DNA of 64,000 nucleotides from Zopfochytrium polystomum (taxonomy: Eukaryota; Chytridiomycota; Chytridiomycetes; Chytridiales; Chytridiaceae). A program made the position numbers and the translations under genes. The first letter of the stretch is position 1; the number at the start of each line of letters is the position of its first letter. The notes below the pieces were generated by a model. That model saw only the letters and a list, made by a program, of their open reading frames with translations, was not told the origin of the DNA and searched no databases. Location of the stretch: assembly GCA_025765615.1 (NCBI GenBank), contig JAIVFJ010000005.1:248001-312000 (forward strand), written 5' to 3'. Of this stretch, positions 12,212 to 62,386 are shown piece after piece.

Positions 12212-12824
12212 TGTTATGAATCACCCTCTGGAAACCTCTGGAACCTTCTAGATTTTTATTTTTTTTTATATTGTTCCAGCCCCAAAGGGCCAACGGGAAG
12301 AGAAAGCGCCATCAATGGTGAACTGTTATAGACTACATCCAGGTTTCACCTCGGCAAACCCACCCCATGCACTACGGACTTACAGGGTCGTCAGGCATCT
12401 CCACTGCACCACTCCTTGTGATTCAAGACCGTACTATTTCTTGTTGCCTTCAACAGCTGGCGTCGTGACTTGAACCCTTGGCCCTTGAGTGACAGATACC
12501 CCGACCCCCCATGCTTTCCCAGCTAGGCTCTTGTGAGGGGCTCTGGAACCTTCTAGAACATTCCTTCATGGAACCTTGTGGAACCTTCTGGAACCTTCTT
12601 TGCTTTCCTGACTTGTCTTGTTGTCATTGGTATCATTGGTATCATTGTATTACTAATTGCTCTTTCTGGAACTTTCTTTGAGTCTTGACAAGGAAGACTC
12701 TCAAAAGGTATAAAAGGGGGATGGGGGACCTGTCCCATCCCTCAAGTGAATTATTGTTTCCAATACAATCATCACTCCTCTCAGTTCCTTGTCTGCCTTG
12801 TCCTGTCCTGCCCTGTTCCTGACA
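12212..12824 (+). repeat. Gypsy-1 5' LTR interrupted by a SINE
   Basis: TGTTATGAATC... to ...TTCCTGACA. Removing the 288-bp insert and one 17-bp duplication leaves 308 bp, exactly the length of the LTRs at 22175 and 27083. The duplicated 17 bp (CTCTGGAACCTTCTAGA) at 12236-12252 and 12541-12557 flank the insert. Confidence 0.93.
12253..12540 (-). mobile_element. tRNA-derived SINE, reverse orientation
   Basis: 288-bp insert with a 17-bp target-site duplication. Read on the minus strand it begins with a tRNA-like head: an A-box-like TAGCTGGGAAAGCA and, about 45 bp on, a B-box-like GGGTTCAAGTC. It ends in an A-rich tail, seen as the T-run at 12253-12270 on the plus strand. Long duplications and an A-tail are the hallmarks of LINE-driven retroposition. 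No coding capacity. The partner LINE was not seen in the window. Confidence 0.75.
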
Positions 12825-12864
12825 TCATAATTCACTTCACCCTCTCCTACTACTCTCTGCCATC

Positions 12865-13788
12865 ATGTCTGACCCAAACAACACCTTCCCTGATGCAACT
12901 GCCTTCCAAGCCTTGATGGACCAATTACAAGCCCTTTCAAGACAGACACACCAACTTCAAGAACAAGTCCTTCACCAGCAGCACCAGCTTCAACAACAAC
13001 TTCACCAACAAGAACATCAAGCTCTTCCCCTGCCCCAAGCCAACCAAGCAAGAGAGCCCAAGGTTCCCAGCCCTGACAAGTTCACTGGGCTGGCCAAAGA
13101 CCTTAGGAACTTTATGGCCACTGTGGAGAATGTCATCCTTCTCCAACCTTCAAGATTTCCCAGTGAGCAAGTCAAGGTTCTTTTCACAAGCACCCTCCTG
13201 TCTGGTCAAGCTCAATCATGGTACAGATCTCTCCCAAGCACACCCAACACCCTGCAAGAGCTCTGGGAGGGGCTGGAAGCTACCTTTGGTGACCCCTACG
13301 CATCTTGGACAGCAAGATCCAAGCTCAAGCATATCAAGCAAGGAAAGCAATCTTGTGTGGCCTACACCAACCAATTCAAGCAACTAGCCAGAGACTCTGG
13401 ATACAATGATGCAGCTCTGATGGAGCTGTACCATGATGGTCTCCATGAGTCCATCCAAGACATGCTCTCCCAGTCTCTGCACATCCCTGAGACCTTGGAA
13501 GAGTACATTCTCCTTGCCATCAAGATTGACAACAGACTCTACTCCAAGAGGCTGAAGCAAAGACAAGTAGGAACTACATCAAGACCTACCCCAGTCCCTC
13601 AAGCTCTTACAGTTCCTGAACCCATGCAAGTGGATGCAGTTGAGACACTTCCTAAGGGTCCTCTGAGCCAAGAGGAGAAAACAAGGAGGGCCGAGCAGGG
13701 ACTGTGTTTCTACTGTGGCCCCAAGGAACACGCTGTCAAGGACTGCCCAAGGAAGAAGCACCCAAACTCCCAGGTCCAGGCTCACTGA
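12865..13788 (+). CDS. gag: Gypsy-1 gag (truncated copy)
   Basis: 307-residue capsid-type protein identical to the one at 22523-23446: a Gln/His-rich N-terminal stretch, a retrotransposon gag core (WYRSLP, ELWEGLEATFGDP) and a CCHC knuckle CFYCGPKEHAVKDC. The frame is intact, but the copy lacks pol, so any mobility would depend on proteins from another copy. Confidence 0.9.
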   Translation: MSDPNNTFPDATAFQALMDQLQALSRQTHQLQEQVLHQQHQLQQQLHQQEHQALPLPQANQAREPKVPSPDKFTGLAKDLRNFMATVENVILLQPSRFPSEQVKVLFTSTLLSGQAQSWYRSLPSTPNTLQELWEGLEATFGDPYASWTARSKLKHIKQGKQSCVAYTNQFKQLARDSGYNDAALMELYHDGLHESIQDMLSQSLHIPETLEEYILLAIKIDNRLYSKRLKQRQVGTTSRPTPVPQALTVPEPMQVDAVETLPKGPLSQEEKTRRAEQGLCFYCGPKEHAVKDCPRKKHPNSQVQAH

Positions 13789-13958
13789 GGGGCAATTCCC
13801 TGGACCCTCCTCCAAGCTGCCCCTGTTTCATCACCACCACCAGCACCACAAACACCTCAGATTCCAAGCCCCACCAACTCACCATGGATGTCAAGATTCA
13901 ACTCTCACCCAAGTCAACCATCACAACCAAGGCCCTTATCGACTCTGGATCATCCCGC

Positions 13959-14636
13959 AACCACCCAGGGCTGAGTACCAACCAGGGCTGAGTACCACCT
14001 TGGGCTGAGTACTTTGTCTGGGCTGAGTACCACCAGGAACCAATTTGCAGCTTGTTTGAGAAACAGTTGCTTGTAAATTAGTTTGGTTGTTTCCAAATCA
14101 GGAAGCTTGTTTGGGAAACAAGCTGCTTTTTCCTTGTTTTTAGAAAGCCAATGATTGGTGCAATCTCTGGTAAGCTCAGTTTTTATCTCACTTTTAGAAA
14201 TGCAGTGATTGGTGCAATCCCTGATTCCTAAATGCCTGTTGCATTGCTCAGATTGCACAGCACAGCAGGGAAGCTGGAATTCTGGATCAGGGAGCAGAAT
14301 TTCCATGCAGAGAGCGGAATTCCAGAGCATGGGGCAGTGGTACATTGCTTCTGCATGCTTGCTGTGCTGTGTTACATGTGCAGAGTGCGTAGTTTGAGCG
14401 TTTTTGTGCATGTTCTAATTGCATTGTTCCTACTGGTAGGATGAACAAAGCTAGAACAACAGCCGCCTTTGCCTATCTCTTTTTATTGAGAACAGATTAG
14501 CCCTTCCAAGCGCCCCATTCAAGTATTGAATCTACTGAGCCCTTCAATCACCCCATCCATGTGATTGGATGGAGTACTCAAAGGGATCACCAGTAACGGG
14601 TGTTGTGTACCCCATGGGTCGAATCTCAACATACTC
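13959..14636. repeat. Short tandem repeat and anonymous sequence
   Basis: Begins with about four copies of a GGGCTGAGTACCA-type unit (13965-14035), then about 600 bp with no gene that I can support. Two similar sentences of about 30 bp containing ATTGGTGCAATC (near 14152 and 14209) hint at an older internal duplication. Confidence 0.45.
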
Positions 14637-22067: not shown

Positions 22068-22174
22068 TTCTGGCGGCAAACAGCGAAAGCTCACCATCGC
22101 GTGCGCACTCGTCGGCGCCTCAGCCATCCTGCTGCTCGACGAACCCACCACCGGAATGGATGTGACCACCACAG
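22068..22174 (+). pseudogene. ABCA-type ABC-transporter ATPase, fragment upstream of the insertion
   Basis: Encodes [18 protein letters not shown] then [16 protein letters not shown], that is the ABC signature (LSGGKQ) and Walker B/D-loop of an ABCA-type nucleotide-binding domain. Sequence before about 22068 is repeat DNA, so upstream exons and Walker A are missing or displaced. The coding frame breaks exactly at the Gypsy-1 insertion and resumes at 27391. Confidence 0.85.
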
Positions 22175-22202
22175 TGTTATGAATCACCCTCTGGAAACCT
22201 CT

Positions 22203-22335
22203 GGAACCTTCTAGAACATTCCTTCATGGAACCTTGTGGAACCTTCTGGAACCTTCTTTGCTTTCCTGACTTGTCTTGTTGTCATTGGTATCATTGGTAT
22301 CATTGTATTACTAATTGCTCTTTCTGGAACTTTCT
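22203..22335 (+). promoter_or_regulatory. Three heat-shock-element-like arrays in the Gypsy-1 LTR
   Basis: Alternating nGAAn/nTTCn pentamers in strict 5-bp register: four at 22203-22222 (gGAAc cTTCt aGAAc aTTCc), four at 22238-22257 (gGAAc cTTCt gGAAc cTTCt) and three at 22321-22335 (tTTCt gGAAc tTTCt). The last lies about 31 bp upstream of the TATA box. This is the consensus bound by trimeric HSF1, so heat- or stress-driven transcription is inferred. Confidence 0.72.
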
Positions 22336-22366
22336 TTGAGTCTTGACAAGGAAGACTCTCAAAAGG

Positions 22367-22373
22367 TATAAAA
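22367..22373 (+). promoter_or_regulatory. TATA box of the Gypsy-1 LTR
   Basis: TATAAAA followed by a G-run. The expected start is about 25-35 bp downstream, near 22397-22402, at the head of the self-priming segment. Also present in the copy at 12.7 kb and in the 3' LTR. Confidence 0.7.
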
Positions 22374-22484
22374 GGGGGATGGGGGACCTGTCCCATCCCT
22401 CAAGTGAATTATTGTTTCCAATACAATCATCACTCCTCTCAGTTCCTTGTCTGCCTTGTCCTGTCCTGCCCTGTTCCTGACATC

Positions 22485-22495
22485 ATAATTCACTT
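22485..22495 (+). other. Self-complementary primer-binding site of Gypsy-1
   Basis: ATAATTCACTT, three bases inside the LTR edge, is the exact reverse complement of AAGTGAATTAT at 22402-22412 in the same LTR, close to the expected RNA 5' end. Tf1/sushi-type elements prime reverse transcription by folding their own 5' end onto the primer site. No initiator-Met-tRNA-like site is present here. Confidence 0.65.
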
Positions 22496-22522
22496 CACCC
22501 TCTCCTACTACTCTCTGCCATC

Positions 22523-23446
22523 ATGTCTGACCCAAACAACACCTTCCCTGATGCAACTGCCTTCCAAGCCTTGATGGACCAATTACAAGCCCTTTCAAGA
22601 CAGACACACCAACTTCAAGAACAAGTCCTTCACCAGCAGCACCAGCTTCAACAACAACTTCACCAACAAGAACATCAAGCTCTTCCCCTGCCCCAAGCCA
22701 ACCAAGCAAGAGAGCCCAAGGTTCCCAGCCCTGACAAGTTCACTGGGCTGGCCAAAGACCTTAGGAACTTTATGGCCACTGTGGAGAATGTCATCCTTCT
22801 CCAACCTTCAAGATTTCCCAGTGAGCAAGTCAAGGTTCTTTTCACAAGCACCCTCCTGTCTGGTCAAGCTCAATCATGGTACAGATCTCTCCCAAGCACA
22901 CCCAACACCCTGCAAGAGCTCTGGGAGGGGCTGGAAGCTACCTTTGGTGACCCCTACGCATCTTGGACAGCAAGATCCAAGCTCAAGCATATCAAGCAAG
23001 GAAAGCAATCTTGTGTGGCCTACACCAACCAATTCAAGCAACTAGCCAGAGACTCTGGATACAATGATGCAGCTCTGATGGAGCTGTACCATGATGGTCT
23101 CCATGAGTCCATCCAAGACATGCTCTCCCAGTCTCTGCACATCCCTGAGACCTTGGAAGAGTACATTCTCCTTGCCATCAAGATTGACAACAGACTCTAC
23201 TCCAAGAGGCTGAAGCAAAGACAAGTAGGAACTACATCAAGACCTACCCCAGTCCCTCAAGCTCTTACAGTTCCTGAACCCATGCAAGTGGATGCAGTTG
23301 AGACACTTCCTAAGGGTCCTCTGAGCCAAGAGGAGAAAACAAGGAGGGCCGAGCAGGGACTGTGTTTCTACTGTGGCCCCAAGGAACACGCTGTCAAGGA
23401 CTGCCCAAGGAAGAAGCACCCAAACTCCCAGGTCCAGGCTCACTGA
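22523..23446 (+). CDS. gag: Gypsy-1 gag
   Basis: 307-residue structural protein: coiled, Gln/His-rich N terminus (HQLQEQVLHQQHQLQ), gag core with WYRSLP and ELWEGLEATFGDP, and a single CCHC knuckle (C-x2-C-x4-H-x4-C) at the C terminus. It overlaps pol by 85 bp in the -1 frame (from 23362), so a -1 ribosomal frameshift would make Gag-Pol. Confidence 0.93.
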   Translation: MSDPNNTFPDATAFQALMDQLQALSRQTHQLQEQVLHQQHQLQQQLHQQEHQALPLPQANQAREPKVPSPDKFTGLAKDLRNFMATVENVILLQPSRFPSEQVKVLFTSTLLSGQAQSWYRSLPSTPNTLQELWEGLEATFGDPYASWTARSKLKHIKQGKQSCVAYTNQFKQLARDSGYNDAALMELYHDGLHESIQDMLSQSLHIPETLEEYILLAIKIDNRLYSKRLKQRQVGTTSRPTPVPQALTVPEPMQVDAVETLPKGPLSQEEKTRRAEQGLCFYCGPKEHAVKDCPRKKHPNSQVQAH

Positions 23447-26400
23447 GGGGCAATTCCCTGGACCCTCCTCCAAGCTGCCCCTGTTTCATCACCACCACCA
23501 GCACCACAAACACCTCAGATTCCAAGCCCCACCAACTCACCATGGATGTCAAGATTCAACTCTCACCCAAGTCAACCATCACAACCAAGGCCCTTATCGA
23601 CTCTGGATCATCCTGCAACATCATTGATGCCACCCTTGCCAAGTCTTGTGCCATTCCCACCATCAAGAAATCCACACCCCTCAAGGTCCACTTTGCCAAT
23701 CATGCTCTGTTCAAGGAAATCAGCCATGAAACCAAGCTAAACCTCCACATCCAAGACTTTCCACCATCCATGGTCAACCTGGAAGTATTGGATCTTGGCT
23801 CACCCACATTCTCTGTCATCCTGGGATTACCATGGCTGCAAGCCCAGAACCCTGACATTGATTGGGTCACTGGTCAAGTCCAACCTCCACCAATTGGAAC
23901 AGTCACCCAAAACTCAAGTCAAGCCCCCAAGTCTCATGCTCTCAAGCCCCTGATTCAAGATTCACAGCCAGCCAAGACTCAAGTTCCACAGTTCACAGTT
24001 CACAGTCAAGATTCAAGTAGAGCTCATAGAGCTCACAGTCATGGCCAAGACTCTAGTTCACAGAACCCACAGTCAAGGATTCAAGTACCACAGTTCACAG
24101 TCCACATTCAAGATTCAAGTTCCACAGCTCACAGTCTTTGCCAAGAACAGAACTCTCAGTCAAAGATTCAAGAATCACAGTTCCCAGTCAAGAATTCATG
24201 CACCACTGCTGAAGAGCACAGGAGCTTGGACCCATCAGACCTTTTGCTGGCATCCAAGCTACCAAAAGAATATCTCCCTTATGCTGATGTGTTTTCCAAG
24301 ACCAAGGCAGACCTGCTACCAGCTCAGAGGCCTTATGACTGTGAAATCCCACTCAAGGATGAAACTTGCAGCCCACCTTTCAAGCCACTGTACCACCTCT
24401 CTCCACCAGAAGCCAAGGCCCTCCAAGAATACATTGAAGAAATGCTGAACAAGGGATTCATCCAACCTTCCAAGTCACCAGCTGGAGCTCCCATCTTTTT
24501 TGTCAAGAAGAAGGATGGGGGGCTGAGACCCTGCGTGGACTACAGAGATCTCAATGAGATGACAGTCAAGAACCGCTATCCACTGCCTCTCATCTCTGAA
24601 TTACTGGACAAACTGAGCCATGCAAGGATATTTTCCAAGATTGACCTCAGAGGTGCCTACAATTTGGTCAGAATTAAGCCCCAGGATCAATGGAAGACTG
24701 CCTTCAGATGCAAATACAGTCACTTTGAGTACTTGGTCATGCCCTTTGGACTTACCAATGCTCCAGCTATTTTCCAAGGCATGATGAATGACATCTTCAG
24801 GGATATTCTGGACCTTTTTGTCATTGTCTACCTGGATGATATCCTGGTATTTTCGTCCGACACTGCAAGCCATATGGGACATGTCAAGACTGTCTTGGAG
24901 AGACTCAGACAGCATCACCTCTATGCAAAGCTGGAGAAGTGCGAATTCCACAAGACCTCCATTGAGTTTTTGGGGTTCATTGTGTCTGACAAAGGGATCT
25001 CCATGGCACCAGACAAGATCCAAACTATTCTTGAATGGAAGGCTCCAAATTCCATCAAGGATGTTCAAAGCTTCCTTGGGTTTTGCAACTTCTACAGAAC
25101 CTTCATTGCCAACTATTCTGCCATAGCCAAGCCTCTCACTGATCTCACCAAGAAGACCACCAAGTTTGAATGGACCCCAGCAGCAGAGCAAGCCTGGCTA
25201 GCTCTTAAGACAGCAACCACAAGTGCACCACTCCTTAAGCATGTGGATCCCTTGCTTCCCTTCACCTTGGAAACTGATGCCTCAGACTATGCCCTCGGTG
25301 CTGTTCTGTCCCAGCCAAGCTCTCAGGACCCCTCTGCTCCTCTGCATCCAGTGGCATATTACTCCAGGAAGCTGAACAGTGCTGAGTGTAACTACACAGT
25401 CCATGACAAGGAGTTGCTTGCAATTGTGGAAGCATTCAAATTCTGGAGACACTACTTGGCTGGTTCTAAAGGCATCTCTGTCTATTCTGATCACAAGAAC
25501 CTCACCTTCTTCAGGGCAAGGAGGTTGCTCAAGCAGAGGCATGCTAGGTGGGCTGAACTGCTCTCTGAGTATGACTTTAAGCTGTGCTATTCTCCTGGCC
25601 ACCTGAACACTGTGGCTGATGCCCTGTCAAGAAGAACAGACCTTGCACCTGAAGGGGGAGATGGTTTCACCCCACCATCCAAGACACACCTTTCATTGCT
25701 TCCTGACAGTGTGTGGGCCCATGCTATTTCCAAGGACCCCAAGCCTCACAAGATTCAAATCAGCCAAGAAGAGGAAAAACTTGAGATACTCAAGACAAGG
25801 CATGATGCAGCAACAGCTGGACACCCAGGAGAGCACAAGACATATGAGCTTGTTTCCAGAGACTTCTACTGGCCAGGCATGAGGAAGTACATCAAGAACT
25901 ATGTCAGCAGCTGTGAAACCTGTCAAAGAAACAAATCCAGCAGACACAAGCCCTATGGACTTCTGGAGCCCCTCCCAATTGCCATCAGCCCTTGGTCATC
26001 AATATCCATGGACTTCATTGTGAAACTGCCCCCATCCCATGGATTTGACTCTATCCTTGTTGTCATCTGCAGAAGGACAAAGTTGGCCCATTTTATCCCC
26101 TGCACTGAGAATATAGATGCACAAGGAACAGCAGACCTGTTTTTGCAGCACATATTCAGGCTCCATGGGCTGCCTCAGTCAATCATCAGTGACAGAGGAC
26201 CTCAGTTCAGATCTCAATTTTGGAAAGCACTCACAACAGCCCTTGGAATCAAGTCTCAACTGTCAACTGCTTATAACCCTCAGACTGATGGGCAAACAGA
26301 AAGAACAAACCAGACTCTGGAGCAGTATTTGAGGTGCTATGTCAGCTATCAACAGGATGATTGGCCCACCCTCCTTCCGCTGGCAGAATTTGCTCTCAAC

Positions 26401-26898
26401 AATTCTCTCCACTCAAGCACCCAGCTATCTCCTTTCTTTGCAACCTATGGCTTCAATCCAAGAGGAGATCTTTTGGGACAAGAGATCCTATCCAATGTCC
26501 AAGCTCCTGCTGTGGCTTCACACTTGCATAAGCTCAAGATCATCAGCACCTTCCTGGACTCCACCCTGAAGCAAGCCCAAGAAGATGCCTCAAGATTCGC
26601 CAACACTCACAGAATGGACCATGACCTTGCTGTGGGTCAGCAAGTTTGGCTTCTGAGGAAGAACTTGCAGACCAAAAGACCAAGTCCCAAGCTAGACAAC
26701 CTCAAGTTGGGACCTTTCAAGATCTTGGAGCAAATCAATCCAGTCACCTTCAAGCTGGATCTCCCGGCATCCATGAAGATCCACCCAGTTTTCCATGTCA
26801 GCCTTTTGGAGAAGTTTGTGGCCAATTCCATTCCAGGCAGAGTTGTTCCTCCTCCTCCTCCAGTTGAGGTAGAAGGTGAAGAGGAATTTGAGTGTTGA
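23362..26898 (+). CDS. pol: Gypsy-1 pol polyprotein
   Basis: Open frame of 1178 codons in frame -1 to gag. Aspartic protease ALIDSGSSCN; reverse transcriptase with KKKDGGLRPCVDYRDLN, VMPFGLTNAPA and VIVYLDDILVFS; RNase H with LETDASDYALGAVL and YSDHKNL; integrase with the HHCC finger (H-x3-H ... C-x2-C at CETCQRNK), the DDE residues in SMDFIVKLP, ISDRGPQFRS and the downstream E of TERTNQ; a GPF/Y module at LGPFKI. All catalytic residues are present. The frame stops at 26896-26898, just short of the chromodomain, because of an apparent single-base insertion. Confidence 0.95.
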   Translation: MFLLWPQGTRCQGLPKEEAPKLPGPGSLRGNSLDPPPSCPCFITTTSTTNTSDSKPHQLTMDVKIQLSPKSTITTKALIDSGSSCNIIDATLAKSCAIPTIKKSTPLKVHFANHALFKEISHETKLNLHIQDFPPSMVNLEVLDLGSPTFSVILGLPWLQAQNPDIDWVTGQVQPPPIGTVTQNSSQAPKSHALKPLIQDSQPAKTQVPQFTVHSQDSSRAHRAHSHGQDSSSQNPQSRIQVPQFTVHIQDSSSTAHSLCQEQNSQSKIQESQFPVKNSCTTAEEHRSLDPSDLLLASKLPKEYLPYADVFSKTKADLLPAQRPYDCEIPLKDETCSPPFKPLYHLSPPEAKALQEYIEEMLNKGFIQPSKSPAGAPIFFVKKKDGGLRPCVDYRDLNEMTVKNRYPLPLISELLDKLSHARIFSKIDLRGAYNLVRIKPQDQWKTAFRCKYSHFEYLVMPFGLTNAPAIFQGMMNDIFRDILDLFVIVYLDDILVFSSDTASHMGHVKTVLERLRQHHLYAKLEKCEFHKTSIEFLGFIVSDKGISMAPDKIQTILEWKAPNSIKDVQSFLGFCNFYRTFIANYSAIAKPLTDLTKKTTKFEWTPAAEQAWLALKTATTSAPLLKHVDPLLPFTLETDASDYALGAVLSQPSSQDPSAPLHPVAYYSRKLNSAECNYTVHDKELLAIVEAFKFWRHYLAGSKGISVYSDHKNLTFFRARRLLKQRHARWAELLSEYDFKLCYSPGHLNTVADALSRRTDLAPEGGDGFTPPSKTHLSLLPDSVWAHAISKDPKPHKIQISQEEEKLEILKTRHDAATAGHPGEHKTYELVSRDFYWPGMRKYIKNYVSSCETCQRNKSSRHKPYGLLEPLPIAISPWSSISMDFIVKLPPSHGFDSILVVICRRTKLAHFIPCTENIDAQGTADLFLQHIFRLHGLPQSIISDRGPQFRSQFWKALTTALGIKSQLSTAYNPQTDGQTERTNQTLEQYLRCYVSYQQDDWPTLLPLAEFALNNSLHSSTQLSPFFATYGFNPRGDLLGQEILSNVQAPAVASHLHKLKIISTFLDSTLKQAQEDASRFANTHRMDHDLAVGQQVWLLRKNLQTKRPSPKLDNLKLGPFKILEQINPVTFKLDLPASMKIHPVFHVSLLEKFVANSIPGRVVPPPPPVEVEGEEEFEC

Positions 26899-27082
26899 AC
26901 AAATCTTGGATGCCAAGTGGTTTGGAAGGACACTCAAGTTCCTTGTTAAGTGGAAAGGTTACTCAGATGCTGACAACACCTGGGAACCTGAGTCAAACCT
27001 CACTCACTGCCAAGACCTTCTGCTCAAGTTCAAGACCAGGTACCCCACCAAGTTGCAGAAGAGGCCTAAAAGGGGGAGATGA
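26899..27082 (+). pseudogene. Gypsy-1 integrase chromodomain, out of frame
   Basis: Encodes VEQILDAKWFGRTLKFLVKW then KGYSDADNTWEPESNL, a canonical chromodomain with its aromatic cage positions, followed by a basic tail ending at 27080-27082, flush with the 3' LTR. It lies in the +1 frame relative to pol. One extra T in the GAGTGTTGAA stretch (about 26892) would explain the break; programmed frameshifting or sequence error are the alternatives. Confidence 0.85.
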
Positions 27083-27390
27083 TGTTATGAATCACCCTCT
27101 GGAAACCTCTGGAACCTTCTAGAACATTCCTTCATGGAACCTTGTGGAACCTTCTGGAACCTTCTTTGCTTTCCTGACTTGTCTTGTTGTCATTGGTATC
27201 ATTGGTATCATTGTATTACTAATTGCTCTTTCTGGAACTTTCTTTGAGTCTTGACAAGGAAGACTCTCAAAATGTATAAAAGGGGGATGGGGGACCTGTC
27301 CCATCCCTCAAGTGAATTATTGTTTCCAATACAATCATCACTCCTCTCAGTTCCTTGTCTGCCTTGTCCTGTCCTGCCCTGTTCCTGACA
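27083..27390 (+). repeat. Gypsy-1 3' LTR
   Basis: 308 bp, one visible difference from the 5' LTR (AAAATGTATAAAA instead of AAAAGGTATAAAA). Preceded by a purine tract and followed by the CACAG duplication. Confidence 0.95.
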
Positions 27391-28143
27391 CACAGCCTCC
27401 ATCTGGCACCTTCTTCGTGCCGTTGCTGGCGCGTCATCTGAATCAGGCCACCGTCGCTGCGGCTGCACCATCCTTCTCACCACCCACTCAATGGAGGAGG
27501 CTGAGGCGCGATTGCGTCATGGGTCGTTCTGGCCGCGTCCGAGCCGCCAGTGGTCCAACGCGTGGTCCGCCAGTCTGTCCCAAACGCTTACGTGGAGGGC
27601 CAAGAAGAAGACGGCGACGGCGCGCACGACGAAACTATCCCATTCGTTGCTGCCGCCGCTGACGGCCAAGAGGTCTCCCCAGCCCACGACACCGCGCCAC
27701 CTGCGAGCGCAACCTCCTCCTCGTCGGTTGACCCAGTCTGCGTGGTCCTCCTCAAGGCCGACCCGCAGAACCCAATGGACCTCACCACCATGTTCCACGA
27801 GCTCCACGACGCCCTTGCGGCTGGCGCGCTCCCCAGCGTCGCGTTGGTCAGTCTGGAGCAGGCCACCCTCGATGAGGCGAGAGCAAGTGGATTTCGAGCT
27901 CTGCCCGTCAACCCAACCCTCCGAATGAAAAAAAAAGGTCGAACATCGATGGTGGAGCAGTGGTGTGGCAGTGGCGGCCAAAAGGTCATCCACAGCTTTG
28001 ACACGGGGCGCGGCCGGCGTTGCGGTCGGTCATGGTGGCAGTGTGTCCGTGAAGTGGCCCTTTTTGTTTTGTTTTTGGTTGGCTTCCTCGGTCTAATTGT
28101 TTCAGGAAAAACCCCTGAGCGAATTAATGATTGGCTCCCCTAA
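27391..28143 (+). pseudogene. ABCA-type ABC-transporter ATPase, fragment downstream of the insertion
   Basis: Resumes the frame of 22068-22174: after the CACAG duplication it reads SIWHLLRAV then TILLTTHSMEEAEA, the H-loop region of the n-binding domain. A frame change follows near 27520; the second frame (27550-28143) holds VVRQSVPNAYVEGQ and LAAGALPSVALVSLEQATLD, the C-terminal regulatory segment of ABCA proteins, then a late hydrophobic stretch. With one CACAG and the element removed, the two sides join in frame. The gene therefore looks broken by the retrotransposon and by at least one indel, and its N-terminal portion is not present nearby. Confidence 0.8.
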
Positions 28144-28204: not shown

Positions 28205-31200
28205 GCGGCTCGGAAAAAAGAAAAAAAAATGTTGAAAAAAAGAAGATACTGAAGAGTGCGGCACGCTAAAAATAGATACATGAAGAGTGTGGCGGTCCAC
28301 AATGAATGCAGTGGCAGGCATGTAGAGAGGGATAGGGGAAAATTGTCTTTGAGTCAGGGCGCCCCCTGAGCCCCTCAGTGGGGGTGCGGCGCCCCCAACC
28401 CCCCAACTCAAAAGAGAGAGGTCGCAGACGATTTGATAACTTATCCACCATCAGCCAATGGCCAGAGTCAGAGACAGAGAGGAAGACAGACAACGGGGAC
28501 TGCCACTCTCAGAGTTGGGGAGGTGGACAGACAACCTGTTGACTTCCACTCAGATAGACAGACTCGTTGACTTCCTTCCTTCTTGAATTTCACTGCCCTT
28601 TTCAGAGATTGACAAATCATTGATTGATAGAAACAGCAGCCCAGTTGACTTGGCAAAATCATAAGCAGAAATAGTATTTTAGTTGGTGGGCAGCCACCCC
28701 ACACTTCTCCGTCTGGGTTGGTGGCGACATTCACACTGTGTTTGGGACACTGATGCCCACTGTGGTCCACTTGAGTGGAACACAGCAGTTTTGCATAGCA
28801 AAAAGAGAAAGAGAGAGAGAGAGAGTGTGTGTGTGTGTGTGTGTGCGTGTCAACTATTCGCAGTGAGAGAGACATAAAGGACTGAAAGACCAACAGAGCG
28901 ACATACAGACAGAGAGACAGACAGATAGAGAGCAGACAGTGAATCAGACAGCCAAGAGCTGAAAGAAGATAAAGGGAGAGTCAGAGAAGCAGAAAGGGGA
29001 GAAAACTTTTTATTGAGTGAGGGGGCTCCAGCCCACTGAGCCGCCCCCCTCAACCCCCCCACTTGAAAGAGACAGAGAGAGAGTGAGAGATTGCAGACAA
29101 TTTTCATTCCTCTTCCATCTACCGCCACATACCGAGTACGAGAGAGAGCCATGCAGACAACCTGTTGACTTCTACTCAGATAGACAGACAGCCCTTTGAC
29201 TTCCTTTTGAATTTCACCACTGTATTTCAATTGGGTGCCAAAGAAAATAAAAGTACTCGCCACTCCACTATTACAATAGAAAACAGATTTACAGAGTGGA
29301 AGGAGAGAGATGGAAAGAGAGAGGGAGTGAGAGCGAGAGGGAGAGAGAGAGATAGAGCGAGAGACAGAGAGACAGACAGAGAGAGAGAGATAGAGAGAGA
29401 CAAAGAGAGAGAAAGGCAGAGGAAATAACCGCATGACCAAGGGACAGAGAGTGCGACAGACAGCCTGCTCACTGCAAGCAAGAGACAGACAGTGAGACAG
29501 ACAGCCGGTGTACTTCAACTATTGGCAGACAGAGAGTCAGAGAGACGCTGGTTGAGACAGAAAGACAGACAGCTTGTTGACTGCATTGACTTCCTTCCAT
29601 TTTGAATTTTTCCGCTGAGTTTTGATTGGGCACCAAAGACAAAAAGTAGAATTGCAATTAGAAAACAGTTTAGCTGCAAATCCTTGTATTCTTTATTATA
29701 GACTAGGGGATGCCCGTTGACTTATAAGCAATCCTTCCCCAAAAAAAAAGTAGAAAAAAAGAAGATACTGAAGAGTGTGGCAGTCCACAATGAATGCAGT
29801 GGCACGCCATGTAGAGGGATAGGGGAAAAATGTTTTTGAGTCAGGGGGCAGGAGCCCCCTGAGCCCTTGTGGGGGAACTGATGCCCCTCAACCCTCAAAA
29901 GAAATAGGGCGCGACTGATTTGATAACTTGTCCACCAACAGCCCAAAAGCCAGAGTCAGAGACATAGAGGATGACAGACAACCCGTTGACTGCCACCCCC
30001 AGACTCAGAGACAGGGAGGGAGGTAGACAGACAACCCGTTGACTTCCATTCAGATAGACAGACAGCTTGTTGACTTCCTTCCTTTTTGAATTTCACTGCC
30101 ACTTTCAGAAAGTGACAAATCATTGAATGATAGAAACAACAGCCCAGTTGACTTTGCAAAATCATAAGCAGAAATAGTATTTTAGTTGGGTGGGGAGCGG
30201 GGTTCAGCCACATCACACTTCTCTGTATGGGGGCTCCTGCCCCCTGAGCCCCCCAGTGGGGGCTTCCCCCCTTCACCCTACCAGCTTGAAAGGGACAGAG
30301 ATAGAGTGAGAGAATGCAGACAATTTTATTCCTTTTCCATCAACAGCCAACATACAGAGTCAGAGACAGAGAGCAAGACGGACAACCTGTTGACTGCCGA
30401 TTGACTGCCAGTCTCAGACTCCGAGACAGGGACGTAGGTAGACAGACAAACCCGTTGACTTCCACTCAGATAAACAGACAGCCTGTTGACTTCCTTTTGA
30501 ATTTTGCCACTCCGCAAAGCCTTGTTTTCTTTCGTGTGTTGATTTTGCCACTCTGTTTAGATTGGGCACAAAAGAAAAAACATTAAACCCACACTGTCCC
30601 CCCTACTCCACTATTGCAATTAGAAAACGGTTTCACATAGTGGACAGAGAGAGTCTGGGTTGTTTTTTTTGAGTCAGGGGGCTTCCGCCCCCTGAGCCCC
30701 CCCTCAACCCCCCTGCTTGAAAAAGACAGAGAGAGTGAGAGATTGCAGACAATGTTATTCCTTTTCCATCTACAGCCAACATTCAGAGCCAGAAACAGAG
30801 AGCGAGACAGACAATCTGTTGATTGCCTGTTGACTGCCACTCCCAGACTCAGAGACAGGGAGGTGGACAGACAACCCGTTGACTTCCACTCAGATAGACA
30901 GACAGCTGGTTGACTTCCTTTTGGAATTTTGCCACTGCATTTCGACTGGGCACCAAAGAAAAAAAATAGTGTTCATAGAGAGGAAGAGATAGAAATGAAT
31001 CCCAAAGGACGTCTGCTGACTGCTGCTTTGCAGCAACAGAGGCTGTAAGGCTGTCCTTGGGCAAGCAAGTCCACCATTCGAAAATGTACATAGAAAGAAG
31101 GGAAAGAGATGGAGAACCTGCTGCTGCTGCTCCTTGCAGTGACGATGGCCAAAGGTCGTTGTCATCGCCCACCCCGTGGTCGCATTTATGCAGAGCGCAA

Positions 31201-31242
31201 CCACACACTCGCCTTCACCCGCCAGAAAACAGAGAAGAGGGA

Positions 31243-31302
<60 letters not shown>

Positions 31303-31353
31303 GATAGAGACAGAGAGACAGATAGACAGAGGACAGAAAAAATTTCTCTGCCC

Positions 31354-31424
<71 letters not shown>

Positions 31425-31745
31425 AGGAGAGAGACAGACTGAGAGAGAGATAGACAGATACACAGACAGACAGACAGACAGGCAAAGAGAGGAGAAACAG
31501 AGTGAGAGAGAGACAGACAGACAGAGAGTGGCAAGCGACAGCGAGAGAGACAGAGCGAAGAGACAGAGAGACAGACAGAGAGACAGACAGCCAAGACAAT
31601 CTGGTAGACAGAGCTCCTTCCTTTTCCGATTTTCCGCCGATTTTCCGATTTTTCCGCTGAGTTTTGATTGGGCACCAAAGACAAAAAGTTATACCCCCCC
31701 CGCTCCACTAATTGCAATTAGGAAAGCAGTTTAGCCGCAAATGCT
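28205..31745. repeat. Composite tandem repeat R2, about two diverged units
   Basis: Two long diverged units, about 28205-29690 and 29702-31745. Shared landmarks are GAAGATACTGAAGAGTG (28238/29760), GAGGGATAGGGGAAAA (28327/29814), ATAGAAACA-CAGCCCAGTTGAC (28627/30129) and a tail GATTGGGCACCAAAGAC (29625/31666). Each unit also has a smaller repeated phrase (GACAGACA..CCTGTTGACTTCC) and GC-rich hairpins of the GGGGGC-N-GCCCCCTGAGCCCCC type at about 28353, 29846, 30228 and 30677. The unit head CTAGGGGATGCC also occurs alone at 21611. Long open frames here are low-complexity artefacts. Confidence 0.75.
31247..31425 (+). repeat. (GA)n simple-sequence arrays
   Basis: Two purine-strand GA arrays, about 31247-31300 and 31358-31416, separated by a short mixed stretch. 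They give spurious Arg/Glu and Ser/Leu frames on opposite strands. Confidence 0.9.
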
Positions 31746-50757: not shown

Positions 50758-50947
50758 TGTAAGGAGAAATGTGTAATGGAAGCTGAGTCATGTATTGAGT
50801 GACGTAAGGCCCTTTTATGTCGGATCGGAGCGGGAAAACAAGAATACCCGAAGTGGGGAAGAGATTTACCCGTGAGGGAAGAATGGAATATCCGGGAGGA
50901 CCAGAAGAATGGAAAAGCAGTTGGACAAACAGGGACATTCCGTCACA
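50758..50947 (-). repeat. Gypsy-2 3' LTR
   Basis: 190 bp; a few substitutions and no obvious indels relative to the right LTR. Confidence 0.9.
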
Positions 50948-51166
50948 TACCCCCCTGCAAGAGCAGAGCCACAGGCGAAGCGATGAAGTCAGGGACGGAA
51001 GGGAAAAATTGGGAAGCGGTCATTGATAAGCCAAAAAGGGGGAGGAATCGGTGGAAGCACGAAAGGGGAAGGAGAAAATTAAGGGGAAGACAACGCCAAG
51101 GCGAAGGAGGCACGGACGCACGTCATAGCAAGTCAGCGAGGCGGAGGCGGTAGTGCAGGTCGGGCG

Positions 51167-52823
51167 TCAGGTCAAGCCATGTGTTAACGAAGGTGAGTGG
51201 TGCGACCAAGAGACCAGGACCTGTTCTCGTCGTCTGAAGAGGCGGCGACCAAGCACTTGGGCGACACGGCGGGCCTCTGGGGGGGTTTCCACCAGGGGGT
51301 TTGGTCTGTGTGGGTCCCAGTAGTATGGTCGGAGCTTGGAGGGGTGAAACACCGGGTGTGCGCCTGAGTCCGGTGGTAGCTCTAGGATTAAAGAGATGCC
51401 TCGTGTGTCGGCAATGCGGAAGGGCCCATGATAGATGGGACCAAGCTTGTCATTGGCAACTGGTGCGTTCCGAGGGTTGAAGTCTTGAGCTGAGACAAGT
51501 ACAAGGTCGCCAACCTTGAATGGTGCTGGCCGTCGGTGAGCATTTGCGTGGGCTGCTTGGTTGTCTTGAGCACGGCGAATGAAGTCCTTGGCGACTGCAA
51601 GACGGGCATAAAGGGCATCATGCGCTGGTGCTGGGACGTCAGGCAGAGGAAGCTCTAGCACAGAGAGCGGGTGTCGGCCAGTGTCCAGTAGGAAGGGTGA
51701 GGCGCCAGTTGAGGAGTTGATGCTGTCGTTGATGCCATATTCCACGATGTGTAGATACTGATCCCAATTGTTGTGCTCCCAGTTCACGAAGTTGCAGAGT
51801 GCAGCAGCTATCCAGGCGTTGCGAATCTCAGTGTGTCCATCTGTCTGAGGATGGAACGAGGTAGAGAGGTTCTGCTTGATGCTGAGACTGCGAGTGAGTG
51901 AGCACCAGAATTCTGCTATGAAGCGAGGGTCTCTGTCACTAATCAAGCGTCGTGGCAGGCCGTGGTTTCGCCAGACGTGAAGTTCAAAACACTTGGCGAC
52001 ATCGGCTGCGGTATCGGTCACTCGTGAGGGGCGATTCGTCACGCTTGGTCAAGTAGTCGACGAAGACAGTGATGGAGTTGACACCTGAACTGGTGAGTGG
52101 AAGCGGGCCAATGAAGTCCAGGGAGACTGTGTGCCAAGGAGAAGGCGGGACCGAGTGAGGCTCAAGGAGGCCGTATGGGGGTTGGCGAGAGAATTTGTTT
52201 CGTTGGCAGAGGTCGCATCGCCTGACGAAAGTTTTTACATCCTTGTGCAGGTTTGGCCAGTGGAAGGTGCAGTAGAGGCGTTCGGCAGTCTTCTCCCACC
52301 CTGTGTGGAGCGCAGGACGTGAGGAGTGCGCAAGGGCAAGGAACCTGGGCTGGAGTGCCGTGGGCAAGTAGAGTCGAACGTTTTCCGCGCCATAGTAGAG
52401 AATGCCGTCTCGTATGAAGTAGCAGCGCAAGGTGGTTCGAAGCGACTTAGGGACAGCTCTGTCCTGGAGGCGAGCGAGAATCTCCTGGGCCTTGTTATCG
52501 GTGGCGAGGGCGTCCTTGACTTCGGCAAGGAGGTCTGGGGTGACAACAACCATGGTGTTGAGCTTGGGAAGAGGATCCGAGTCCGTCTGGGTCGAGGCCT
52601 CTAGAGAATGTGAGCGACGAGAGAGGACATCAGCAATGTTGTTCCACTTCCCGTCGATCCATCGGATCTGGAAGTCAAGTGCGAGGATGTCGGCAATCCA
52701 GCGATGATGGACCGGGCGGAGCTTGGGCTGATCCAGGATATGGCGAAGGGAACTATGGTCGGTGAAGACTTTGACATCTCGTCCGACGAAGTACTGACGA
52801 TGCTGTTGCAGGGCCTCTACCAA
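51167..52823 (-). pseudogene. Gypsy-2 RNase H, integrase and chromodomain relic
   Basis: Upstream frame (52823-51984): VFTDHSSLRHIL and WNNIADVLSRR of RNase H, then the integrase finger ending in CDLCQRNK and SLDFIGPLP with the first catalytic D. A frame change near 52030 leads to the second frame (52042-51167): ISDRDPRFIAEFW, TDGHTEIRNAW, a GPF/Y-like GPFRIADTRG and a worn chromodomain-like end (VAQVLGRRLFRRREQVLVSW). The frame change falls inside the integrase core, so this copy is probably inactive. Confidence 0.85.
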
Positions 52824-52956
52824 TGCGAGGATTTCGCCTTGGTAGGGGTGTTAGAGAGATTCAGCAGAGTTGCATTTGCAGGATGCGAATGCTATTGGTC
52901 GTTCTAGGCCGTCATCATCGGGCTGGGCGACGTACGATCCAATGGCGGACTTGGAC

Positions 52957-55405
52957 CTATAAGTGGACAGGGCGTGATGGGTTGAACATGGAGAGTGACG
53001 ATGGGTGCGCAAGCACTTGCTTTGCTTGTTCGAAGGCAGCTTGGAGCTCGTTGTTCCAGATGAATGGGGTCGACTTTGAGATCTTTTCTCCTTGGCGAAG
53101 GAGATTGGAGAGTGGAGCGAGGGTCTCTGCTTGTCGAGGGACGAAACGCTGGATGGTGTTTGCGAGCCCAAGGAAACTGCGGAGGTCGTGCCAGGACTTT
53201 GGCGGCTCTAACTCGAGAATTGCGGACACTTGGGAAGGCAGGACTTGCACTGTTCCTTGAGAGACGAGGTAGCCAAGATACTTTAACTCAGTCTGGAGGA
53301 ACGAACACATGTGTAACCGGCAGTGGAACTCGTTTTCACGTAGTCGCGTGAGGACGAGGTCCAGATGACGCAGATGGTCTTCGAGGGTTTCAGAGAAGAC
53401 GAGAAGATCGTCAAGGTAGACCGTCAGGAATTCGTCGATACAATCGCGAAAGATATTGTTCATGGTAGATTGGAAGGTTGCCGGCGCGTTTGAGAGGCCG
53501 GAAGGCAGTCTTGTGAACGTCAGAAGCAGAAACGCATATCTGGTGGTATCCCGATGCGAGGTCTATGGCGGTGAAGTACTTGGCGCGTCGCAGGCGGTCG
53601 AGTATCTCAGGTATGTTCGGCAAGGCAGTCCGATTCTTTATTGTGTTCTTGTTGAGGGCGCAGTAGTCGAGGACTAATCGATATTTGTCCTTCTGTTTGA
53701 TGTAGAAGATGGGAGCACCGAACGGGGAGGTCGAATTTCGGATGCGACCATGCTTGAGTTGGAAGTCGAGTTCCTTTCGAAGTTCAGCCAATTCGTCCTC
53801 AGCCATGGGGTAGATCTGCCTGAAGGGAGGCGACGCCTTGGGGTCTGCGAGTTCAATGCGATGGTCAGTCTCTCGCTCTGGGGGCAGGCCGTCAAAAGGC
53901 TGGAACACTGTGGGATACCGGTCGAGGATGGCACGGTCTGCGGGATCGAGTTTCTCAAGGACTTCACAGTCAGCGGCGTTCGAGTCGGCGGTGGTGTGCT
54001 TGAGTGTAGGATTCATTGCCATCAACATTCCCCATTGTGTGCCGTGTTTGCGAATGGCACGCTTGAAGGAGTTCGCTGAGATGATGTCGAGGGCCTCTTG
54101 ACCCTGCCAGGCCGTGCAGTCAGCGAAGGTCAGAGTGTCGGTGGGCCAGTTGATCTGGGGATTGTGCTTGTTGAGCCAGTCCTTGCCGAGAATCAAGTGG
54201 TACGAGATGTTGGCTGCAAGGAACTGGTGAGTCATGGGGTTGCCATTGATGGTGAAGGAGAACTCATATACGTCCCCAGGAACCTTGGTGGACGTGCTGT
54301 TAACGGCGAGGTTGAGACTGACGGGGCTGTAGGAGCGGATAGGAGTCTGGTCCTTGACGAGCGAGTAGTGGATGAAACTTGGAGTGGCGCCACTATCGAC
54401 GAGGACCAATACTGGAGTGGAGTCGAGGAAAGCGTCGAGGACAAGAAGTGGAGCGCCAGAGAGGAATGGATTGTAAAACGGAATTGAAAAGAGCTTTGTG
54501 GAAGGAGCCGGGTAGTTTATGTCTATGTTTCTATCAGGATTGCTTGTGAGGACACTATCGTCGACTCCTGTCTTGATTGCCGAGGGCCCAGAGACTTGGG
54601 GAGACTCAGTGGCTTTCGTCTGTCGCCGTGACGGCAGCGACAGAGTTGGCTGCTGAGCGGCGTCGAACGCCTGGAGCGCGGCAATTATCGACGGTGTGAT
54701 TGCGGCCGTGGCAGTACACGCGCCATCCCTTGGTAGTGTAGTCAGCGCGTTTGGCGGCTGTGAGCTTGACATGTTGTTTCTTGACCTGGAGGTTGTCGAT
54801 TTGCATGGGCTCGTACGTGCGGCTATCGAATGGGGGGGAGGACCGAAAGCTTCGAAAGCTTCCGTTGCTGCCGGGGAGGACTGCTGCTGCAACTTCTGTC
54901 GGGGCTGATGCTGTGTCTGCTGTTGCTGTTGATGCTGACGATTACTTCGACTTGGAGAAGTGGGAGCGCTGATCGCATTTGACTGTTGTTTCTGCGATCG
55001 ATGCTGAATATCATCGATGCGCTCGGCTTCTCGTTGGACATCAGCCAGGACTGCGAGCTTGTGGTCCGCTTGGATTTGTGATTTTAGTCCGTTTCTGTAG
55101 ACTGTTGTGAGGAATACGTCTGGGAGGCGGGGGCCTTCGGCGTGGACGGCCACCAGGAGTTTGTCAAATTCTTGGGAGTACGCTATTGCAGACTTGGTTT
55201 GTCGTGCAGAGCAGAGCAGTCGAACAGAGTCGGAGTACGAGAGTGAGGAGCTAAACTGGAGACGAATCCATTGGCAGTACTGCGCCCAGGTCATGTTGTT
55301 ACAGGCAGTTTCATCGAGGTTTTGCCAGAGCGCAAGAGCAGTTCCTTCGAGACCTCCTGATATCCAACGAGCGTACGTCAAGTGGTTTTTGTATTCAGCA
55401 GGCAC
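52957..55405 (-). pseudogene. Gypsy-2 gag C terminus, protease and reverse transcriptase
   Basis: Frame 55405-53411 carries a gag core (LTYARWISGGLEGTALALWQ), a Gln-rich stretch, the protease site LVDSGATPSFIHY, and RT up to FTAIDLASGYHQI. After a frame change near 53460 the RT continues (53463-52957) with FLTVYLDDLLVFS and the connection domain. A further break near 52830 precedes RNase H. Confidence 0.88.
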
Positions 55406-55953
55406 CGCGAATTATGGAGCTCGCTTTTCTGCTTGCACTTGTAAAGGTAGTCCTCAAGAAGCTTGCGGACGGCATATGGCGGCTTGTTCTTAACGTTGCC
55501 GTCAAAAGTAGGTGGGGAGACTGGCGGGATCTTGAAGTCCTTGAGGCGGCTCGATGGGTTGCCTGAGCCCGCGACGTTGGCAAGCTGTGTGACGAGCTGC
55601 CGCAAGACGTTCTCGATCGAAGTTGGAGGTGTGGCCGGGTCGACTTCGTCCAATGGGTACTGTGCCGTGGACGGTGGGGCCGAAGATGTTCGGACTGGCC
55701 GTGGTGTTAGAGGGCCTTGCTCGTCGGTGTTGGGAAGGTCGAGGGGTGTTTCGAGTGGGCTGTCCAGGAAGTCGGTGTTCACTTGCAGGTACGAGTTCCG
55801 GAATTCGTTCCTGGCTAGTCGAAGGTGCTCGACCGTTGCTTGGTGCAGGATTGGGTTTCGCATTAGTCCTACTGTGCGGCGCTGAGCGGCGAGGTCTTCG
55901 AGAGCAGAGGATATCATCTCCGTAGGCGAAGACGCGGAACTTGAGGACGACAT
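55378..55953 (-). pseudogene. Gypsy-2 gag N terminus
   Basis: 191-codon frame starting MSSSSSASSPTEMISSALED and ending within a stretch (FDGNVKNKPPYAVRKLLEDY) typical of gag just before its capsid core. It runs into the next frame with a 28-bp overlap. Confidence 0.7.
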
Positions 55954-56136
55954 AGTAAAAGGCGGCGGTGGGTAGACCGACGAGGACAGTGGCGACGGCA
56001 GTCGCTAGAACGAGAACAAGAGACATGATGGAGTTCGTTGGCGGCGCTGAGGCTTCAGCGTCGAGATTGCGAAGGGAGGGAGCGAGAGAGAGAGAGAGAC
56101 TCGAAGTCGACAGGATGCGAGGGAGTAGTTTGGAGG

Positions 56137-56365
56137 TGTTAGTTTTGGGTCTTTTGGTGTAAGCAGTGTGCAGGAGCTTTGACCAGTTTCTGCTCTGCAA
56201 GGATGACTTGCAGCATTTTGCAAGTGATGGTCCTTGTAACAGTTTTGTATAAAGACAAACACAAGACTGACAGAAGCCAAGATCAACCTCCCACCACCAC
56301 CACCTTCAGTAGTGTACACCACAGCAGCCCAACCCATCAATCAGCCACCATAGCAAATTCTTTCA
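56137..56365 (+). repeat. Copia-2 5' LTR
   Basis: TGTTAGTTTTGGG... to ...ATTCTTTCA, 229 bp, with a TATAAAG box at 56249-56255. Confidence 0.93.
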
Positions 56366-56379
56366 TACAAAACTGTTAC
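56366..56379 (+). other. Putative primer-binding site of Copia-2, complementary to its own LTR
   Basis: TACAAAACTGTTAC directly follows the LTR and is the exact reverse complement of GTAACAGTTTTGTA at 56236-56249 in the LTR (repeated in the 3' LTR at 62486-62499). It does not look like the usual Ty1/copia tRNA-Met site. Confidence 0.55.
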
Positions 56380-58285
56380 CCATCCCAATCACTTCCCCCT
56401 TGGTTTCAACAAAATCCAATCAGTAGAAGGGGTTGTACGCTTTTCAGATCTGCCAACTTCGTGGAGCGATCACAGGCGCTACAGACATCGTACAGCAATT
56501 TCGTTACTACCATCGGAAAGCTCTTGATCTCCTCTTTCCAACGAACGCACCTGATCTCGGATCGGACGCTCCTACGTCGTATCCACCGCCTCCAAAGTTG
56601 TCGCCTACTTTTCCAACTTCAACCTCAATTTGCTCGCCTTCCAGACCTCCCCCAGCCGATCCCAAGCTATCATTGGAAAGGCCTGCTTCGGGACTACACG
56701 ACTGCCACCAACGGCACCCCAAAATCACTCTCCTTCGTGATAACCGACGCCTTTTTCCATTCAGGGTCACCAGATTACCTCCAACCCTCACCATTAATTT
56801 TGATTTTTTGTCCCCAATTGCAGACAACGACCACCCCCCTACCTGACACACACCAAGCTAACAAACCAACTTTTCATCTGCTGCAACACCACCTTCACAA
56901 CACACCCAAAATCCAACGAAATCCCTTCAAACTTGGCACACATAATCGTCCTGAGAAAACAACATGACTACTGACTCAACCAATCACATCAACGCAGAGC
57001 AGAACGATGCAGTTGATCCACTAGACCTCTGTGACACTGGAACCTGTCTCATCAGAGATGGACCATTCCAAGGACAGAGATTCCAACTGGTGCCTCCGCC
57101 TCGTGGACAAGAGAAAGGAACTTGGTTTCCTGGTGCACAGAACCAGAATGCACATTGCTGTCTAATCATTCCTCGCCACATCTATCGAGCCCTCACCCAA
57201 ATCACACCTGGTCGAACTTGCAAAGGAGATCATTGACGACTTTGAATGCATTAAAATGGAACCAACTGAAGCCTCAGATGCCGTCATTACCCGATTCACT
57301 GAAGCATACCATCGAGTCGACAGCTTTGCAAAGTCAGCAGCTGGAGAACTTCTCCATCATATTCGCCCTTTCCAACAAGTTGTTTGAATCTTTGTTGGCT
57401 CACTGGGCCAAAGCCCATTGGATATGGGGAAAGGAAAAGTTTTTCTTGTTGTCAGCAACCCAGCTCCTCAGATAACAAGTTTAGCCAAACTAATCTCACG
57501 CTTCAAAAACCTGTTTAACAAAACAACTTTGATAAGCAACACATCGAGCTGGCTGATCAAGCAACAATCACTCGGCTACTGCTGCACCAGAAATCACCAC
57601 ACCAACTATTACTATCCTGGTTATCTGCCTCTTCATATTGATTGAACAACAAACAGCAGAGGTCCTCAAAAACCAACCAGCTCCATCAACTAATAATCAA
57701 TCTGCTAAGTGTTTTGCTGTTCGCTTTTGATATGCATCAAAGTAACTGCCTTTATCCTCTCAACATTCAGCCATGCAGTCTCCTGTCAGTAATGATTCAT
57801 CATTCCATGAACATCAACACAGGCATTTTAGTTTTTGGAGACTTGCACCTCTAACAACTGTCCCTGTGCCCTCTTAATAATACTTACTCATTTTCAACAG
57901 GGCATAACAAATTAGGAATTAATGATATGGTGTTTTCCTCGTCTATCAACCCATGGAGTTGGCAGTTCAATTTCTGGATTCCCTGATACAATTATCATTG
58001 ACATGGCCACCTTTTGAGATCAGAGTGTTTTCAACCACACTGAAACTCTCACCATCAAACATATTAGTGATTGGGATGACCAACAGTTGTGCAAGTGCCA
58101 ACTCTCACAACCATGGCAACCTTGTGCAATTTCCTCATAACTTTGGACTCTGTTGCATCAAGCTAAGCCTCTCTTTATCTTTTCTCACATAACTTCAGCA
58201 CTTCAGCCAAAGACAATTTGCAGTCCATTCATTGATAGAACAAGGACTGGTTGAGTAGTTTAACAATCCTCTAACCATTTTGTAA
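56380..58285 (+). other. Copia-2 interior, left part
   Basis: A short gag-like frame at 56964-57236 (MTTDSTNHINAEQ..., RFQLVPPPRGQEKGTWFPG) and other short frames to about 57640; otherwise AT-rich DNA with no supported gene. Confidence 0.4.
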
Positions 58286-60889: not shown

Positions 60890-61111
60890 TGTTATGAATC
60901 ACCCTCTGGAAACCTCCAGAACCTTCTAGAACATTCCTTCATGGAACCTTGTGGAACCTTCTGGAACCTTCTTTGCTTTCCTGACTTGTCGTGTTATCAT
61001 TGGTATCATTGTATTACTAATTGCTCTTTCTGGAACTTCCTTTGAGTCTTGACAAGGAAGACTCTCAAAAGTTCCTTCTCTGCCTTGTCCTGTCCTGCCC
61101 TGTTCCTGACA
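60890..61111 (+). mobile_element. Gypsy-1 solo LTR, internally deleted
   Basis: TGTTATGAATC... to ...TTCCTGACA, 222 bp, with the duplication GCACT on both sides (60885-60889 and 61112-61116). Compared with the 308-bp LTR it lacks one ATCATTGGT unit and the segment from the TATA box to CAGTTCCT, so it should be unable to start transcription, although the first two heat-shock arrays remain. Confidence 0.9.
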
Positions 61112-62337: not shown

Positions 62338-62386
62338 GGTTTTCCTCCGTGCCGGCCTTTGCTCCTGCCCACAGCTTAGGGGGGAG

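Follow-up and report, generated by a model that had tools for sequence, protein, structure and literature searches.

Organisation of the Retrotransposon

The window analysed here is a 64,000-nucleotide stretch of the genome of Zopfochytrium polystomum, a chytrid of the Chytridiales whose assembly comprises 80.16 Mb in 761 contigs. A Ty3/Gypsy retrotransposon occupies positions 22175–27390 of the window. It is bounded by 308-bp long terminal repeats (LTRs), which differ by a single mismatch at LTR position 191, and is flanked by the target-site duplication CACAG. The assignment to Ty3/Gypsy is based on the two LTRs, the short target-site duplication, the presence of gag and the order of the pol domains, namely protease, reverse transcriptase (RT), RNase H and integrase. 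The gag ORF, in frame 0, is overlapped by the pol ORF, which lies in frame 2. The features of the element and of the other copies of its LTR in the window are the following:

22170..22174, +, 5′ target-site duplication CACAG (from the LTR flanks)
22175..22482, +, 5′ LTR, 308 bp (TGTTATGAAT...CCTGACA)
22203..22222, +, heat-shock-element (HSE) array 1, four perfect units (GAA-TTC-GAA-TTC)
22238..22257, +, HSE array 2, four perfect units
22321..22335, +, HSE array 3, three perfect units, TTC first
22367..22373, +, TATAAAA box
22402..22412, +, putative transcript 5′ end (predicted start 22402); these 11 nt are complementary to 22485–22495
22485..22495, +, predicted self-priming site ATAATTCACTT (11-nt complement)
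22523..23446, +, gag ORF, 307 aa (Retrotrans_gag)
23362..26898, +, pol ORF, 1178 aa: protease, RT, RNase H, integrase and Tf2-type SH3 domain (SH3_Tf2-1)
27083..27390, +, 3′ LTR, 308 bp, one difference from the 5′ LTR
27111..27130, +, HSE array 1 of the 3′ LTR
27146..27165, +, HSE array 2 of the 3′ LTR
27229..27243, +, HSE array 3 of the 3′ LTR
27391..27395, +, 3′ target-site duplication CACAG (from the LTR flanks)
12541..13961, +, second, truncated copy: LTR minus its first ~24 bp, then leader and gag
12545..12564, 12580..12599 and 12663..12677, +, three arrays of the truncated copy
60890..61111, +, LTR copy with two 4-unit arrays, without TATA box and leader

The minus strand bears a Gypsy element at 50758–62891, between repeats at 50758 and 62695. 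Within it lies a second element, whose 230-bp repeats (56136 and 62386) are 100% identical, and the LTR copy 60890–61111 sits inside this second element; the arrangement is probably one of nested insertions. The region 28500–31500 contains long GAGA microsatellites and five copies of a 64-bp dispersed repeat of the GTTGACTTCC type.

Heat-Shock-Element Arrays in the Window

In the 5′ LTR, eleven GAA and TTC units alternate exactly every 5 bp, in groups of four, four and three, and TATAAAA lies 31 bp past the last unit. The preliminary description of this DNA had reported eleven such pentamers in the same grouping, the last about 31 bp before the TATA box, and its coordinates proved exact. Both 4-unit arrays are the perfect portions of 6-unit grids (22193–22222 and 22228–22257) with one core mismatch each. 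The entire window contains 11 perfect arrays of at least three units, and all of them lie within the four LTR copies beginning at 12541, 22175, 27083 and 60890. None of the 11 falls in the other LTR-type repeats of the window (pairs 56136/62386 and 50758/62695). An order-2 Markov model, built on the whole window with the LTR copies included, predicts 1.11 runs of three and 0.05 runs of four units per window. A chance origin of the arrays was rejected, all 11 belonging to one LTR family.

It had also been proposed that every new insertion or solo LTR of the element adds a heat-inducible promoter. This would not hold for the copy at 60890–61111, which has two arrays and lacks the TATA box and leader.

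Retention and Growth of the Arrays in Further LTR Copies

Ninety further LTRs were drawn from 100 places with an exact match to the TATA block, after omission of the three in the window itself and the final seven; the sample leans towards young copies, since it was picked by an exact TATA block. An array of at least three units is present in 90/90 of these LTRs, of at least four in 87 and of at least eight in 36. The 3-unit array starting 44–48 bp before the TATA box is kept in 87 of the 90. The idea that the arrays are peculiar to the window copy was rejected on these counts, and the expectation of the preliminary description that other copies would keep the array register was borne out.

The array is not fixed in the family. 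The number of units per LTR ranges from 3 to 27 with a median of 12.5 (n = 90), and many copies hold 19 or 27 units. The commonest forms are 4-4-3 (31 LTRs), 4-8-4-3 (26), 4-8-8-4-3 (5) and 4-3 (5). The U3 region is 192, 237 or 282 bp long in 61 of the 87 LTRs with an intact start, i.e., it grows in steps of 45 bp, and Tandem Repeats Finder detected a 45-bp unit in copies L132 and L125 and units of 65 and 55 bp in L077. Judging by these sequences, the arrays expand mostly by 45-bp steps with the register maintained.

According to their flanks, the 90 LTRs comprise 29 5′ LTRs, 25 3′ LTRs, 23 solo LTRs with a target-site duplication, 5 solo LTRs without one and 1 LTR common to tandem elements, the remaining 7 being truncated or unassigned. 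Hence, the arrays are present in whole elements and solo LTRs alike.

Abundance and Age of the Family

Perfect 4-unit sites number 7,339 in the genome, overlapping sites inside longer arrays each being counted, versus 10 for the reversed control pattern. Spacer letters of the LTR type are found in 7,063 of them (3,512 + 3,551; 96%). The TATA block, with up to three mismatches allowed, occurs in 1,931 genome copies (967 + 964). Seven consecutive perfect units beginning with GAA gave 994 forward and 993 reverse matches; an 8-unit array yields one match per strand and a longer one yields more, so the number of arrays is below these counts. The genome counts may include allelic pairs, since some loci may be represented by both alleles in the assembly.

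A search with the 228-aa RT piece of the window copy produced 556 candidates, of which 150 were scored. All 150 scored matches are 100% identical (rounded) to the query and represent near-identical copies of the HSE-bearing LTR family. About two thirds of them (100, by hand count) lie in open frames of 1255 codons; the RT of the window copy lies in an open frame of 1194 codons. The RT identity and the intact long frames indicate that the family is young and large. The preliminary description had called the element young from a one-base difference between its LTRs; that difference was found again, at LTR position 191, and youth extends to an abundant family.

LTR or RT copies recur at fixed steps of 3171, 1725 and 4160 bp in C6:359820-372562, C6:235448-240653 and C18:207902-216905, which suggests tandem arrays of element pieces. 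Besides the usual LTR spacing of ~4.9 kb, pairs ~2.8 and 3.5 kb apart recur (C1, C3, C4, C5, C6, C10), suggesting shorter, non-autonomous size classes that share the promoter.

Host Heat-Shock Factors and Upstream Regions of Heat-Shock Protein Genes

The HSF_DNA-bind domain has 14 matches in the genome, four of them near full length. The HSF domain on C19 aligns to the solved domains of human HSF2 with an E-value of 4e-25, including the stretch SFVRQLNMYGF, which we take to be the recognition helix. The HSF loci on C17 and C403 may be alleles, as may the HSP70 loci on C174 and C709. Three partial HSF-domain matches (C7:485101, C459:28671 and C655:3016) have near-equal scores and one in-frame TAG each, and are possibly copies of a duplicated or mobile HSF pseudogene.

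Twenty-four regions upstream of HSP70- and HSP20-type genes were examined, 19 of which contain a TATA box. In 15 of the 19, the best 4-unit grid in the 300 bp ahead of this box scores 11/12, in a scan that was run after the sequences had been inspected; paralogues and possible alleles are among the HSP20 genes, and these 15 regions are therefore not independent cases. As a control, a grid of 11/12 occurs in 8 of 2,000 random 300-bp pieces of the window taken outside the LTR family. The 11/12 grid is absent from nine of the 24 regions, four with a TATA box (scores 7–9) and five without (8 at best), and some of the upstream pieces may stop short of the real promoter. A perfect 4-unit array is present in 0/24 HSP upstream regions and a perfect 3-unit run in one (L106). 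On this comparison, the grid of the LTR is mostly cleaner than those of the host HSP regions examined.

In ten HSP20 regions (L095 and L097–L105), which are paralogues or alleles, the second unit of the grid is GTC or ATC instead of TTC. From the sequences, it looks as if a weaker site had been retained there.

Predicted Transcription Start and Proposed Mechanism

Positions 22402–22412 are exactly complementary over 11 nt to positions 22485–22495, located just past the 5′ LTR. No longer complement exists between LTR sequence and the 25 nt that follow the LTR. Retrotransposon Tf1 of Schizosaccharomyces pombe, which has one ORF for gag-pol, primes its own reverse transcription through an 11-nt match between the transcript start and the primer site. 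The chytrid element resembles Tf1 in the 11-nt complement past its 5′ LTR, the predicted primer, and in the SH3_Tf2-1 domain; it differs in that gag and pol occupy separate frames in place of a single gag-pol ORF. The self-priming match and the analogy with Tf1 suggest 22402, 35 bp downstream of the first T in the TATA box, as the likely transcription start. RNA folding of the leader was unremarkable (z = −1.33).

The family is, in our assessment, a young, high-copy Ty3/Gypsy group whose LTR promoter, on the strength of the perfect HSE arrays that it holds, is probably switched on by host HSF upon heating. In the proposed sequence of events, HSF trimers would bind both 4-unit arrays, at about −199 to −180 and −164 to −145 from the predicted start, and also the proximal 3-unit array, at about −81 to −67. 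Bound HSF would then bring the transcription machinery to the TATA box. RNA synthesis would begin at 22402, and base pairing of the first 11 nt with 22485–22495, directly beyond the 5′ LTR, would let the transcript prime its own reverse transcription. For longer arrays, we infer a replication advantage. The preliminary description had taken the family to be stress-driven, a reading that is well supported at the level of sequence.

Among other readings, the arrays may be HSF sites that provide constitutive or developmental expression (e.g., at sporulation or in zoospores), HSF being active without heat in that case. HSF drives basal and developmental genes too in other eukaryotes, and the genome contains several HSF-type loci. 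However, the one-mismatch grid in 15 of the 19 TATA-bearing HSP20/HSP70 regions ties the grid to the heat-shock regulon, and we regard this reading as improbable.

Still less probable, to the point of being a marginal candidate, is a neutral minisatellite of 10 or 45 bp (GGAACCTTCT), spread by slippage and hitchhiking on a successful element, with a functionless likeness to HSEs. Such an origin would agree with the variable number of repeat copies among LTRs and with the 10-bp and 45-bp repeats called by Tandem Repeats Finder (65-bp in one copy). However, array 3 stands apart, begins with TTC and keeps its position ahead of the TATA box in 87 of 90 copies, and the host has the same grid, with one mismatch, ahead of many HSP genes. 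The variation within array 1 also speaks against it. Array 1 with its right flank has 2,371 exact sites in the genome, 2,800 when its 6 spacer letters are left free and 2,516 when its 12 core letters are left free. This amounts to 429 spacer-only and 145 core-only variants, i.e., 5.9-fold fewer per core letter, where kin sites are treated as independent and one LTR can hold several such sites. The binomial p-value of 4e-91 assumes independent sites, which these are not. Neighbouring arrays may exchange spacer letters, and the comparison is confined to the core and spacer letters of one array.

Shared and private variants were also compared in 24 LTR representatives, i.e., the window's LTR and 23 groups formed from 32 LTRs with a U3 length of 192; the target-site duplication was the sole criterion for grouping insertions, so that two probably unrelated pairs on different contigs (AGCTA and GCACT) were merged. 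Core letters have 0 shared and 4 private variants and the other positions have 10 and 20, respectively, a difference in the same direction as that within array 1 that is not significant (Fisher p = 0.30). In this set, private changes in the core are not rarer than elsewhere. Shared changes at −168 and −131 from the TATA box each complete another GAA/TTC unit. The pure minisatellite reading is weakened. That the palindromic repeats serve a non-HSF activator, an integrase, a chromatin protein or a DNA structure is extremely unlikely: palindromic arrays can bind other proteins, and the evidence here consists of sequence, but the 5-bp alternating GAA/TTC grid is a specific signature of HSF, and HSF genes encoding the usual domain are present in the host.

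Comparison with Known Heat-Responsive Elements

Activation of the chytrid element by HSF, the reading that we prefer, has its nearest parallel in ONSEN/COPIA78, an LTR retrotransposon with heat-response elements in its LTR; HSF-driven induction is known for the Brassicaceae elements (PMC3907296, PMC5059998). In ONSEN, a shorter element is described as having been duplicated to give the four adjacent nGAAn units of the LTR (PMC3907296, PMC5059998), and the heat-response element is described as being bound by HSFA2 (PMC5059998; PMC3907296). Among COPIA elements of the Brassicaceae, a heat induction of up to a thousand-fold is reported to accompany four adjacent nGAAn units (PMC5059998). Like ONSEN, the chytrid element has HSEs of at least four adjacent units in its LTR, upstream of a TATA box, in a host that possesses an HSF with a conserved DNA-binding domain. 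In contrast, it is a Ty3/Gypsy element of a chytrid and not a plant Copia, the domains and their order being other than those of the Copia type, and it has three arrays per LTR, growth by 45 bp to 19 or 27 units and ~1,900 LTR copies. By its sequence features, it is likely to share the ONSEN way of working without being a member of the ONSEN family.

In fungi, the Cryptococcus elements TCN3 and TCN12, mobilised at 37 °C, are described as having two putative HSEs and one in their LTRs, respectively (PMC12810828). They resemble the chytrid family as fungal LTR elements with putative LTR HSEs (PMC12810828); the chytrid arrays, known here from sequence, differ in being perfect, multiple and amplified genome-wide. 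According to the same 2026 paper, heat-shock activation of transposons via host machinery "remains undescribed in fungi" (PMC12810828). MAGGY of Magnaporthe is another fungal LTR element, and its promoter and transposition are stress-induced (PMC3978060, citing earlier work). It differs in responding to copper also, and the terms "HSE" and "heat shock element" are absent from the main text of that article (PMC3978060). Titles and abstract openings retrieved in a literature search on heat-shock retrotransposons of fungi and chytrids, with partial coverage and few subscription papers, did not include the present family.

Outside fungi, the terminal repeats of the Dictyostelium retroelement DIRS-1 are reported to contain a heat-shock promoter (PMC2685390); DIRS-1, however, is a tyrosine-recombinase element with inverted terminal repeats, not of the LTR/integrase type. 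Helitrons hold 61.4% of the HSEs of Caenorhabditis elegans, many of them acquiring HSF-1 (PMC6927752). The likeness is that a mobile element holds most of the genomic HSEs, in the chytrid as judged by the LTR-type spacers in 96% of perfect 4-unit sites, although 61.4% and 96% rest on different HSE definitions. Helitrons are DNA transposons whose HSEs serve nearby genes, whereas the HSEs described here belong to an LTR promoter.

If heat induction is true, the family would be a clear fungal case in an early-diverging lineage and at a very high copy number. Whether stronger HSEs pay off for a transposon can be tested directly on the family's naturally occurring 11-, 19- and 27-unit arrays. A further-reaching interpretation, which we put forward tentatively and consider doubtful, is that the element has captured the host heat-shock response genome-wide. 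Longer perfect arrays would have been selected by outbidding the weaker HSP promoters for HSF. The HSF landscape of the genome would consist mainly of the thousands of LTR sites, which would drive heat-triggered bursts and at the same time draw off HSF, a sink that the host would have to tolerate.

In a 2023 survey, Cladochytrium polystomum, taken here to be the same species as Zopfochytrium polystomum, is listed with the largest chytrid assembly (81.2 Mb) and 12.3% transposable elements (PMC9926174). Given these values for assembly size and transposon content (PMC9926174), a heat-tuned element may bear on the growth of the genome.
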